Source: Bacteroidota bacterium (GTDB lineage Bacteria; Bacteroidota; Ignavibacteria; Tepidaquicellales; Tepidaquicellaceae). Taken from it: 32,620 nucleotides of DNA. The stretch is taken from NCBI GenBank assembly GCA_021286895.1, contig JAJTBN010000010.1, positions 1 through 32,620 of the forward strand, read 5' to 3'. The translations under genes and the position numbers were made by a program. Below are positions 21,145-24,768 of this stretch, piece after piece (position 1 is the stretch's first letter; the number at the start of each line of letters is the position of its first letter). The notes beneath the pieces are model-generated. The model made no database searches, was not told the origin of the DNA, and was given only the letters and a program-made list of their open reading frames with translations.

Positions 21145-21783
21145 ATTCCGGACATAAAATTAAAAAATATTTCGGTAAGCATAGGCGAGCCTAAACGCGT
21201 TCTGTTCAGAATAAAGAATCTTGTAATCAAGACCGGTGAACGCGTGCTTATCAAGGGACCGAGCGGTATCGGCAAGACCACGCTGCTTCATCTGATAGCG
21301 GGGCTGTTTCTTCCCGACGAGGGCGAAGTGATTATCGGCGGCAAGGCTCTCGGTAAACTCTCTGACAATGAAAGAAGCGAATTGCGAAGAAGTTCCGTCG
21401 GAATAATTTTCCAGAAACTGAATCTCATAGAGCATCTGACTGTGCTCGAAAACGCGGAACTGCAGGCGCGAGGCGGCAAGGACCTTACCGGCAAGAGCAT
21501 GAACGCGCTCGAGAAAGTCGGCATGTCGGCGTTGTCGGGACAGTTGTCGGCAAGCCTTAGTCTGGGCGAACAGCAGCGCGTCGCGGTAGCGAGAGTTCTA
21601 AGTTTTTCGCCTGATATCGTTCTGGCAGACGAGCCGACATCGAGCCTCGATGAAAACAACTCAAACATCATCATGGATTCTCTTATAAACCTCCCTGAAG
21701 AAACGACGCTTATAACAGTCAGCCATGACCACAGGATAGAAAAAAGATTCTCGAGAATAATTAATTTCAGCGAACTTTCATGA
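21145..21783 (+). CDS. ABC transporter ATP-binding protein (LolD/MacB type)
   Basis: This is the ATPase of an ABC transporter of the lipoprotein/peptide exporter type. It has Walker A GPSGIGKTT, the Q-loop in FQKLNLIEHLTVLEN, signature LSLGEQQRVAVARVL, Walker B DIVLADEPTS and the H-loop in TVSHDH. The reading frame is open back to a stop at 21100-21102. No ATG, GTG or TTG lies in frame upstream of GTG 21244, which would remove the first beta-strands and start just before Walker A. The residues before it (IKLKNISVSIGEPKRVLF, and so on) clearly belong to the protein. I place the start at ATT 21145 as a best guess, giving about 212 residues. The gene overlaps the permease by 4 bp. Confidence 0.8.
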   Translation: MPDIKLKNISVSIGEPKRVLFRIKNLVIKTGERVLIKGPSGIGKTTLLHLIAGLFLPDEGEVIIGGKALGKLSDNERSELRRSSVGIIFQKLNLIEHLTVLENAELQARGGKDLTGKSMNALEKVGMSALSGQLSASLSLGEQQRVAVARVLSFSPDIVLADEPTSSLDENNSNIIMDSLINLPEETTLITVSHDHRIEKRFSRIINFSELS

Positions 21784-23012
21784 CACCTCTGCGGCTTGCA
21801 ATATTGAACCTTACGAGACGGAAACTTACGACTTTCTTCGCTGTGCTTTCCATTTCCATTTCCGTCGCGAGCAGCGGACTGCTTCTGCGCTCTTACATAC
21901 TTTCAAACTCCAGATTAGCAACTCTCGGCAAAGGGTGCGACGCGGTTGTGGGAGCGAAAAATTCGGGAATAGAAATTTTGCTCGGCAGTCTTAACGGGGA
22001 GGGCGACTTTCCGGATTTCGTTCCTTACGCGCTGTTCGAATCGCTGAGAAAAGAACAGCACGGAGAGGGCGTTTACGTATCCTCGGGAATTAAATCCGTT
22101 ATACCTTTCCTGTATTTCGGGAAGTTTAAGAATTACCGTGTAATTGGCACGGATGAAAGTTTCTTTAAAAGACCGCAGCCCGCGCCTGACCTGGATTTCG
22201 CGCAGGGCACCTGGGCGGCGAATCCCGACGAGGTCGTTATAGGAAGTTACATTGCAGATAAAGAAAATGTACGAATCGGAGATTATATTACTGTATCGCC
22301 GTGGCTCGGTAAAAGCGAAGAGCGGAAGTTTCCCGAATTTAAACTTAAGGTTACGGGCATACTCGACAGAACAAAAACCGTTTGGGATTATTCTCTGTTC
22401 TCGAACGTAAAACAGGCGCAGGATATTTACAGGCAGAACCTCGATTCGGCAAAAATATCAATCTGGGGATATAACGTCCTGAATTATTTTCTTATCTATA
22501 CGGATTTCGGAAGCAGAAAGCCTCTCACAGACCTCATAAACAAGCGTACCGTCGCGCAGGTAATATACGTCAACGAAGAAATCTCGAAACTCGAAGGGCT
22601 GCTTTCATCCGGAAAAAATCTCGGTCTTTTCATAACGCTTATGATAATCCTTCTCGGCGGGCTTGTCGTATCGGTGCTAATGATAACCCGTTTCGACGCG
22701 ATGAAGATACAACTGGCTGTGCTCCGCGCAATCGGCTATAAGAAAGGTGAGATTGCAAAATGGCTCTTGTGGGAGGGAATACTCCTCGGCGTTACTTCGT
22801 GCCTTGCTGGCGCGCTGTTCGACATGATGCTCTTCCCCGCTTTAAAAGGCGCAATAGGCATGGGACTGCCGGAAACCGTATTCGCGTCAAGCACAATCTT
22901 TCAGAGCATACCTATCTGGATAATAACAATCGCCGCGACATGCATCGCCGCTTATATACCGTTTGTCATTTTCAACACGCTCAACGTACATGACTCGTTA
23001 AGAGGATTATAA
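21780..23012 (+). CDS. ABC transporter permease (FtsX/MacB-like)
   Basis: This membrane component has 410 residues. One N-terminal membrane helix (about 13-33) is followed by a large extracytoplasmic domain (about 40-275) of the MacB periplasmic-core type. Three helices of an FtsX domain come next (LFITLMIILLGGLVVSVLMI, WEGILLGVTSCLAGALFDMML, IPIWIITIAATCIAAYIPFVIF), with the conserved LAVLRAIGYKKGEI between the first two. The start ATGA overlaps the ATPase stop, so the two are translationally coupled. The substrate is unknown; such pairs often handle lipoproteins, peptides or signals. A terminator follows. Confidence 0.88.
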   Translation: MTPLRLAILNLTRRKLTTFFAVLSISISVASSGLLLRSYILSNSRLATLGKGCDAVVGAKNSGIEILLGSLNGEGDFPDFVPYALFESLRKEQHGEGVYVSSGIKSVIPFLYFGKFKNYRVIGTDESFFKRPQPAPDLDFAQGTWAANPDEVVIGSYIADKENVRIGDYITVSPWLGKSEERKFPEFKLKVTGILDRTKTVWDYSLFSNVKQAQDIYRQNLDSAKISIWGYNVLNYFLIYTDFGSRKPLTDLINKRTVAQVIYVNEEISKLEGLLSSGKNLGLFITLMIILLGGLVVSVLMITRFDAMKIQLAVLRAIGYKKGEIAKWLLWEGILLGVTSCLAGALFDMMLFPALKGAIGMGLPETVFASSTIFQSIPIWIITIAATCIAAYIPFVIFNTLNVHDSLRGL

Positions 23013-23024
23013 AATTTCAGGAAT

Positions 23025-23212
23025 AAAAAAAGCGCCGGAATAAATCCCGGCGCTTTTAATTAAGTAAAGGGTAATTTGGGGACTCTTTATAAATTATATA
23101 TAGAAATAATTTATTGTCATTTTAAAAGAACTTTCAGAAAAATTTTAAAGAACCTTGTTGCGAAATGTCATCTTGCCTGTTTATCGATACCCTTACCTCT
23201 CAATTGCCACCA
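23025..23212 (-). ncRNA. Predicted orphan sigma-54-dependent RNA, about 188 nt
   Basis: A transcript from the sigma-54 promoter would start near 23212 and end at the minus-strand T-run of the terminator (about 23025). It contains no credible ORF; the only ATG frames give 8 codons each. It has signs of structure: a long-range stem pairs 23188-23198 (RNA 5' side, AGGTAAGGGTA) with 23062-23073 (TACCCTTTACTT), one bulge and one G-U pair, placed right before the terminator. An inner hairpin is ATAAATTAT/ATAATTTAT (23089-23114). The terminator closes the 3' end. I recognise no known RNA family. Confidence 0.6.
23028..23057. terminator. Strong bidirectional intrinsic terminator
   Basis: AAAAGCGCCGG and CCGGCGCTTTT pair perfectly around an 8-base loop. 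On the minus strand the stem is followed by a run of seven Ts (23025-23031 read in reverse). On the plus strand the tail is TTTTAATT. It ends the ABC permease transcript and, better still, the predicted minus-strand RNA. Confidence 0.93.
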
Positions 23213-23223
23213 CAAATAATGTA

Positions 23224-23237
23224 GCAATTAGCGTGCC
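23224..23237 (-). promoter_or_regulatory. Near-consensus sigma-54 (-24/-12) promoter
   Basis: The minus strand reads CGGCACGCTAATTGCTA. The GG is at 23237-23236, then exactly ten bases, then GC at 23225-23224. The consensus is TGGCAC-N5-TTGCW; the match is CGGCACG and TTGCT, one mismatch in the flanking T. Expected start is near 23212. Two enhancer-like sites lie upstream at 23346-23377. Confidence 0.72.
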
Positions 23238-23345
23238 GAGCCTCAAGAATTTTGTGTTTAATAAAATACTTTCTTAAAATGTTGAAAAAGCAGCAAAATA
23301 TGAGATACAAATGTCATTACAGTGTTTTTTGAATGTATCTTTTTT

Positions 23346-23377
23346 TCTCAATATGAGACGGTTTTCTCAATATGAGA
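23346..23377. promoter_or_regulatory. Twin palindromic enhancer-like sites
   Basis: TCTCAATATGAGA occurs at 23346-23358 and again, identical, at 23365-23377, 19 bp apart. Each is a dyad with arms TCTCA and TGAGA and a 3-base centre. The identity extends to a 16-base word TTTTCTCAATATGAGA. A half site ATATGAGA lies at 23299-23306. They sit about 110-140 bp upstream of the sigma-54 -24 box, the usual place for enhancer-binding protein dimers. Confidence 0.7.
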
Positions 23378-23614
23378 TTCTAAAACACAAAAAAATAGTA
23401 ATGGGATAACAGTTATATAGTGTTGATACTACAAAAATCTTTAATATATTTATTCGGAAGAGCGCAGAAACTTACTTGAACATTCGTGGGGGTTTTTCAA
23501 TAATGAAAGAAAAATCTTATTAATTTTTATCGAAATACTTTTTTTGTTATATGGAATTTCTGAAAGACTTATAGTCAAAAAGAATAAAAATAGATAGTTG
23601 GCGTTTTACAATGG

Positions 23615-23655
23615 TTCCCGCTTTTAAAAGCGGTCCGCTTCGCGGGCCCGCGGGA
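23615..23655. repeat. Compound GC-rich hairpin
   Basis: TTCCCGC at the left pairs with GCGGGAA at the right. Two inner stem-loops are CCGCTTTTAAAAGCGG and CCCGCTTCGCGGG-like. It has the same style as the hairpins at 6594-6660 (GCCCGCTTCGCGGGC). Confidence 0.65.
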
Positions 23656-23793
23656 ATGAAAAACTCAGACAAAATCGTTTTCCGGAAGTTTCAGTTTTGT
23701 GTTTTTTAATGACGGCAGACGAGTTACTCAGAACGCCTAACAGACTTTAATTTTTTTTAAATATTGAGTAAATATAGAAATAATAACAAAATT

Positions 23794-24768
23794 ATGACAA
23801 CCAGACGGGGTTTTCTAAGAAGCACGGTTTTCGCGGCGGGCGCTCTGCCGTTTATAAACAGATTAAGGCTGCCGGGTTTCAGAAGCGGCTCTGTTACGAA
23901 ACCTCTTGTACTTTCAACGTGGAATTTCGGCATGCCGGCAAACAAAGAGGCTTGGAAAATTCTCGATGCAGGGGGAAAGGCGCTTGACGCTGTAGAAGCG
24001 GGAGTAAAAATTCCCGAAGGCGACCCGAAGGTAACGTCCGTCGGTTACGGCGGGCTTCCCGACAGGGACGGACACGTTACTCTTGACGCGTGCATTATGG
24101 ACGAAGATTTCAACTGCGGGTCGGTAGCGTTTCTCGAAGGAATAATGCATCCAATTTCCGTGGCAAGGCTCGTAATGGAAAAGACCCCGCATATAATGCT
24201 TGCGGGCGACGGCGCGCTTCAGTTCGCGCTTCAGAACGGCTTTAAAAAAGAAAATCTCCTCACGCCGGAAGCAGAGAAAAAATGGAAAGAGTGGACTGAG
24301 AAAAACAATTACATACCGTATGAAAAGACGAACCACGATACAATAGGAATGATAGCGATTGACAAAGCGGGCAATCTTTCGGGAGCGGTTACCACAAGCG
24401 GCTTAAAATATAAGTATCACGGCAGAGTCGGGGATTCACCGATAATAGGCGCCGCGCTTTACGTTAACAACGACGCGGGCGCCGCTACAGCGACGGGAGT
24501 AGGCGAAGAGGTTATAAGAATCTGCGGCGCGCATACGATAGTCGAACTGATGGCTAACGGCTACAGCCCCGCGGACGCGTGCAAGGCCGCGGTTGAAAGA
24601 ATTATCAAAATTAAAAAAGATAACATTAAAGACATACAGGTGGGGTTCCTCGCCCTGAATAAGTACGGGGAATACGGAGCATACGCCATACAGAACGATT
24701 TCGAATACGCCGTATACTCGGAAACAGAAAACAATATTTTAAAAAAATCAGATTACAGTTTCAGATAA
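23794..24768 (+). CDS. Tat-exported N4-(beta-N-acetylglucosaminyl)-L-asparaginase-like Ntn-hydrolase
   Basis: This is a glycosylasparaginase/isoaspartyl peptidase-family enzyme, which cleaves N-acetylglucosaminyl-asparagine or beta-aspartyl bonds after self-cleavage. The ATG at 23794 gives 324 residues and begins MTTRRGFLRSTVFAAGALPF, a Tat signal (RRGFLR). A TTG at 23764 would add ten residues. The autocleavage site is HDTIGMIAID, with the new N-terminal nucleophile Thr183. Downstream substrate-site features are GRVGDSPIIGAALYVNNDAGAATATGVGEE. Length is normal. Its stop is only 1 bp before xdhA, so it leads a four-gene operon with xdhABC. The preproenzyme is expected in the periplasm, whereas XDH proteins are usually cytosolic, so why they are linked is unclear. 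Confidence 0.9.
   Translation: MTTRRGFLRSTVFAAGALPFINRLRLPGFRSGSVTKPLVLSTWNFGMPANKEAWKILDAGGKALDAVEAGVKIPEGDPKVTSVGYGGLPDRDGHVTLDACIMDEDFNCGSVAFLEGIMHPISVARLVMEKTPHIMLAGDGALQFALQNGFKKENLLTPEAEKKWKEWTEKNNYIPYEKTNHDTIGMIAIDKAGNLSGAVTTSGLKYKYHGRVGDSPIIGAALYVNNDAGAATATGVGEEVIRICGAHTIVELMANGYSPADACKAAVERIIKIKKDNIKDIQVGFLALNKYGEYGAYAIQNDFEYAVYSETENNILKKSDYSFR

Follow-up and report, generated by a model that had tools for sequence, protein, structure and literature searches.

An intergenic region that holds a promoter and a terminator, with hardly any ORF between them, raises the question of what is made from it and what the product does. The window analyzed here, a stretch of 32,620 nucleotides from an Ignavibacteria genome, has such a region on its minus strand. 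An earlier note, written from the window alone, had proposed a structured small RNA there, with a long-range stem as its main feature. We compared five genomes of an uncultured Ignavibacteria genus, G000 (the source of the window) to G004. The comparison makes it very probable that the locus is a genuine small-RNA gene. Its product most likely acts in trans by base pairing and is induced together with a sigma-54 regulon of secreted surface proteins.

Layout of the locus

The locus sits between a convergent gene for an FtsX/MacB-type permease (21780-23012, plus strand) and a divergent gene of the asparaginase family, which starts at about 23797 on the plus strand. Along the minus strand come two TCTCATATTGAGA palindromes, a sigma-54 -24/-12 element, about 100 nt of sequence, a hairpin, a C-rich stretch and a terminator:

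23365..23377, no strand assigned: distal enhancer-like palindrome TCTCATATTGAGA, a probable sigma-54 activator site
23346..23358, no strand assigned: proximal enhancer-like palindrome TCTCATATTGAGA, starting 120 bp upstream of the -24 element
23223..23238, minus: sigma-54 -24/-12 promoter CGGCACGCTAATTGCT; the other four genomes have a TGGCA-type element at the corresponding position
23025..23212, minus: predicted small RNA of about 188 nt, delimited by the promoter and terminator positions and found in all five genus genomes
23188..23199, minus: 5′ segment rich in G, able to form the long-range stem with the core; 4/5 genomes, statistically weak
23089..23114, minus: 9-pair hairpin just upstream of the core, from the minimum-energy fold and a pair-by-pair comparison of relatives
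23058..23081, minus: invariant 24-nt core CCCCAAATTACCCTTTACTTAATT, the proposed seed, identical in 5/5 genomes and complementary to a hydrolase 3′ UTR
23025..23057, minus: intrinsic terminator with a U tail; two-sided changes in 6/13 pairs

Promoter, hairpin and terminator are all at the positions and on the strand that the earlier note had given, and CGGCACGCTAATTGCT at 23238-23223 implies a transcription start near 23212. As the note had supposed, this is the layout of a small-RNA gene with a sigma-54 promoter and a terminator of its own, and it is kept throughout the genus, with a predicted RNA of 160 to 200 nt. The neighborhoods differ; the permease gene adjoins the locus in G000 and G001, and other genes do so in G003 and G004. 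The upper limit of 8 codons claimed for ORFs in the window's RNA holds for ATG starts, while a TTG start gives 11 codons. A check for a conserved ORF, which the note had suggested, found none common to the five genomes.

Two other elements in the region may be mentioned. A sigma-70-like site (ATGACA-16-TATAAT, 11/12) lies within the RNA gene at 23120-23093 on the minus strand and could be the start of a shorter RNA with just the core and the terminator. In the AT-rich intergenic region, a GC-rich palindromic stretch at about 23618-23656 is perhaps a repeat element.

A compensated terminator and an invariant core

The terminator, described in the earlier note as perfect and as perhaps serving this RNA, has 13 perfect pairs (23028-23057), and its T tail is on the minus strand. 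It is the sole terminator-like site in a scan of 22900-23800, for which shuffled sequences lead one to expect 0.4. Its pairs are kept in the relatives, with 98.5% of cells paired across the five genomes and two-sided, compensatory changes in the 6 pairs listed above. None of 500 shuffles reached its covariation score, and sliding the partners destroys that score.

The hairpin at 23089-23114, also predicted in the note, belongs to the minimum-energy fold and shows some compensatory change. Two-sided changes occur in 4 of its 9 consensus pairs; it is just partly supported, since in 5 of the 9 at least one sequence is unpaired. Folding energy alone is within chance (z = -1.66; 13 of 200 shuffles fold equally well).

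The long-range stem fared less well. It had been put at about 11 pairs; a stem can indeed be folded, with 10 pairs, a run of 7 and one of 3 on either side of a 2-nt internal loop. It is formable in G000, G002, G003 and, weakly, G004, and G001 is without it. Against 1,000 shuffles, only G002 stands out (0 equally good); the counts for the other three are 99, 135 and 209, and for G001 924. We therefore rejected it as the defining feature, given that it forms in four of five genomes and beats shuffles in one. The covariance comparison proposed in the earlier note thus bears out the terminator and says nothing for this stem, because its 3′ side lies inside an invariant block, where covariation cannot show. 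One possibility is that the 5′ G-rich segment lets the RNA mask its own core.

What is conserved instead is the block itself. All 24 positions of CCCCAAATTACCCTTTACTTAATT are identical in all ten genome pairs; the RNA 5′ of the core has 29 to 45% identity in eight of these pairs (72% and 83% in two close pairs), and no further invariant run in the alignment exceeds 4 columns. The evidence beyond chance hence comes from the relatives, in the form of the invariant core and the compensatory changes in the terminator, and not from folding. A sequence block as the main element under conservation speaks for pairing in trans and less for a structured RNA.

Distribution of the RNA

In a collection of 84,980 species that perhaps omits the record of the window itself, the sole occurrences of the core 21-mer are the four orthologues. 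The named records with the core are Ignavibacteria/Ignavibacteriae metagenome assemblies, and neither plasmids nor viral contigs gave a match, the 21-mer being absent from the latter. A covariance model of the 3′ part, used to search 29 genomes of the family, scored 104 to 111 bits in the five genus genomes and at best 40.6 bits in the other 24. Within the genus, the runner-up scored 43.4 bits (G002) and is a terminator, with a variant of the core, behind a gene for a secreted protein. None of ten weak matches that were inspected unites enhancer sites, a sigma-54 element and the core. Judged from these genomes, and at the sensitivity of the covariance model used, the RNA occurs in this genus only.

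The earlier note recognized no family, and Rfam release 15 agrees, with no match at the gathering score for the window and five further loci; a permissive search gave sub-threshold matches only, the best at 29.9 bits against a cut-off of 47. All five genus genomes encode RpoN. For Hfq, the count was 0 of 5, in a search whose control detects it in 5 of 14 known genomes.

The enhancer motif and a sigma-54 regulon

Two sites of the enhancer motif TCTCAnnnTGAGA precede the RNA in every genome of the genus, one of them mismatched in G002. From the start of the proximal site to the sigma-54 element is 109 bp in G003 and G004 and 120 to 121 bp in G000 to G002, two spacing classes that differ by about one helical turn. 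In G000, the sRNA locus has the genome's only perfect TCTCAnnnTGAGA pair.

Across the 59 relatives searched, 6 genomes contain tandem TCTCAnnnTGAGA pairs, with 15 in G003, 11 each in G004 and G009, and 1 each in G000, G001 and G019; reversed-pattern controls gave none. A sigma-54-type element lies within 140 bp of 36 of the 39 non-overlapping pairs read, compared to 121 of 1,900 random positions in the same loci, mostly at distances of 50-53, 60-62, 72 or 96-109 bp. The genes behind the pairs, their products named by eye from the sequences and not by family search, encode mostly exported proteins; among the others are response regulators, carbamate-kinase-like proteins and runs of 32-residue peptides. 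The regulon can be traced by pairs with sigma-54 elements at fixed distances behind them at loci L119-L144 and L265-L274 (G003, G004 and G009); it comprises exported surface proteins and lipoproteins as well as response regulators. On the minus strand at L134 (G003:C46) and L127 (G004:C243), runs of near-identical 32-residue peptides of the MKAIKQFTGADFSFMIGIILVVSLLVTGFIVK type, each with its own start, follow such a promoter. At L275 (G019:C47, minus strand), an enhancer pair and a sigma-54 element stand before a short hairpin-terminated stretch with neither an ORF nor the core, perhaps another RNA.

A complementary site in the 3′ UTR of a secreted hydrolase gene

If the core acts by pairing, complementary sites should be of interest. 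In each of the five genomes, the 3′ untranslated region of a particular orthologous gene contains a complement to the core (weak in G001); the product of this gene is a secreted hydrolase that combines S15/PepX domains with a type IX sorting tail. In G000 and G004, this gene comes after genes for a UDP-GlcNAc 2-epimerase and a glycosyltransferase. The core and the UTR can form 18 contiguous bp in G000, 18 in G002, 17 in G003 and 20 in G004; the G001 complement is just 8 + 7 bp (8 contiguous). Equally good sites occurred in 0 (G000), 19 (G001), 1 (G002), 2 (G003) and 0 (G004) of 500 dinucleotide-shuffled UTRs, counts that overstate the weight of the sites, since these were found by searching for the complement.

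The weight rests rather on the common location and on the homologues that lack such a site. Sixteen homologous 3′ regions were read correctly, 12 from outside the genus and 4 from genus paralogues, and have at most 10 contiguous pairs. Three of 23 loci were mis-anchored, with a clipped locus or no stop reached; of these, G002:C180 was verified separately, and G000:C70 and G023:C210 are left out of the 16. With long complements in the hydrolase UTRs of four genus genomes and none in the 16 homologous regions, site and sRNA co-occur.

Other matches to the core

A search for the 21-mer that tolerated 3 mismatches or fewer turned up 7 additional matches in the genus (five genomes), against 3 in 54 other genomes; the reversed-pattern controls gave 1 and 9, respectively. 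For the exact 14-mer TTACCCTTTACTTA, there are 11 matches in the genus genomes and 0 in 34 others. These include the five sRNA genes, two of the hydrolase 3′ UTR complements (G000:C81 and G003:C40) and complements at the ribosome-binding sites of two type IX-secreted proteins (G003:C65, 1065 aa; G001:C8, 549 aa). The remaining two are a second sRNA-like locus (G003:C43) and a site upstream of a gene (G004:C494), for which we have no explanation. A 13-mer with at most 1 mismatch gave 35 matches, below the 57 of its reversed control.

The ribosome-binding sites of secreted adhesin-like proteins in two species are thus further candidate targets, as far as complementarity goes. Broad targeting of ribosome-binding sites was considered and rejected, as the pattern AGTAAAGGG-N2-12-ATG is not enriched (21 in the 5 genus genomes, 74 in 24 others); the low count for the 13-mer speaks against it as well.

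The second sRNA-like locus (L095 in G003:C43; L111 in G004:C308) has the 3′ half of the core in common with the sRNA. There, TTNCCCTTTACTTAATTG stands before a terminator, with further hairpins, and no enhancer or sigma-54 element was seen within 400 nt.

Weighing the explanations

The best explanation, which we hold to be probable given this comparison, is a stand-alone sigma-54-driven sRNA whose core would pair in trans, with the hydrolase 3′ UTR as the best-supported partner. The comparison behind it covers the gene, the promoter layout, the terminator, the conservation of the core, the complementary sites and the co-occurrence of site and sRNA.

The same pairing could run the other way, the UTR stretch serving as a sponge: a fragment from the 3′ end of the hydrolase operon mRNA would bind and remove the sRNA, and the true targets would be elsewhere. 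Precedents exist, as QrrX removes Qrr and CrfA removes SisA. Sponges of sibling sRNAs are known (PMC12559287), and here two hairpins flank the site, which is downstream of the stop codon and in G003 is present in two copies 60 nt apart. The 3′ fragment is, however, without a demonstrated promoter of its own, and few other targets were found, so that we regard this as rather unlikely. The hydrolase 3′ UTR may be either a regulated target or a sponge.

It is less likely still that the RNA titrates a protein, as CrcZ does with Hfq, or that the core is a DNA site, with the complement elsewhere incidental. A long, invariant single-stranded block could well be a protein site, and no Hfq was found to aid pairing. 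Yet chance would have to put the complement into the 3′ region of the same orthologue in each of the five genomes, with 17 to 20 contiguous bp in four, and to leave it out of the 16 other homologous regions read; a DNA site, moreover, would need neither terminator nor covariation.

A 5′ leader or attenuator of the next same-strand gene is very improbable: the terminator is followed, after about 120 to 160 nt, by a codirectional gene in G002 and G004, but the next gene is convergent in G000, G001 and G003, and the neighbors vary between genomes. We give equally little credence to a small-peptide gene; there is a 35-codon ATG ORF in G001 and a 32-codon TTG ORF in G002, but the five genomes have no peptide in common, and the 8-codon ORFs of the window have no counterpart in the other four.

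Comparison with known systems

The trans-pairing sRNA that we favor resembles, in its predicted action, the Qrr sRNAs, which have an activator-dependent sigma-54 promoter (LuxO) and for which Rfam contains a model. Qrr was neither a match at the gathering score nor among the permissive-search matches listed. In Vibrio, Qrr sRNAs destabilize luxR mRNA, as stated in PMC2680268, whose reference list names LuxO and sigma-54. Like Qrr, the predicted small RNA described here has an activator-dependent type of sigma-54 promoter and a conserved sequence that would pair with mRNAs. The two differ in phylum, and the present RNA has no Rfam match, no Hfq found beside it and one clear copy per genome; its best partner site is in a 3′ UTR, whereas that of Qrr is in a 5′ UTR.

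Other systems also invite comparison. The glmY gene is under sigma-54 control. GlmZ of Escherichia coli acts by base pairing and affects the supply of envelope precursors (PMC7073468). Lacking any Rfam match, our RNA has no sequence relation to GlmY/GlmZ, and its candidate partner is a secreted hydrolase operon. CrcZ is under sigma-54/CbrB control. This Pseudomonas RNA is linked to Hfq and catabolite repression (PMC4063720). It works by Hfq binding; here no Hfq was found, and the core has long mRNA complements. The C-rich sRNAs of Gram-positive bacteria (RsaE/RoxS and LhrC) pair with G-rich ribosome-binding sites through unpaired C-rich motifs. Our core is C-rich as well; the differences are the sigma-54 promoter, the lack of enrichment of ribosome-binding-site targets and the lack of an Rfam match, the LhrC model giving 17.9 bits against a cut-off of 110. 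SRNAs such as GibS of Bacteroides are regulatory RNAs of a related phylum, without any sequence or promoter relation found in a comparison made through Rfam; to our knowledge, Hfq is absent there.

Such an RNA is known in kind. As a family, and in Ignavibacteria, we found none in print in the open-licence literature, and no papers there devoted to sRNAs or to a sigma-54 regulon in Ignavibacteria.

Proposed mechanism and implications

We imagine that a putative sigma-54 activator binds the two TCTCAnnnTGAGA sites and switches on the -24/-12 promoter. The RNA would end at the 23057-23025 terminator and display the 24-nt C-rich core between two hairpins, from where the core may pair in trans with mRNAs, the best-supported partner being the 3′ UTR of the type IX-secreted S15/PepX-like hydrolase. 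Transcription, pairing in the cell and the direction of the effect are what we infer; for the last, our guess is repression. Given that the enhancer motif precedes many exported-protein genes in the relatives, the RNA probably adjusts other surface products while the activator raises the set.

One can envision a wider scheme, tentative as it is, in which one sigma-54 activator switches the cell surface. It would turn on type IX-secreted adhesins and lipoproteins directly and act on an envelope-glycan/secreted-hydrolase operon through an Hfq-free sRNA, by long near-perfect 3′ UTR pairing, with the UTR site doubling as a threshold-setting sponge. If this were true, the second sRNA-like locus in G003 and G004 would make for a small network of sibling sRNAs.

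With a partner site named, the pairing model is directly testable with reporters. Should Hfq-free pairing at the 3′ UTR hold, it would usefully illustrate how sRNAs can act on the 3′ ends of mRNAs. Our findings argue, by comparison, for a regulatory RNA in Ignavibacteria and link it to exported surface proteins whose sigma-54 regulon has a clear enhancer motif.
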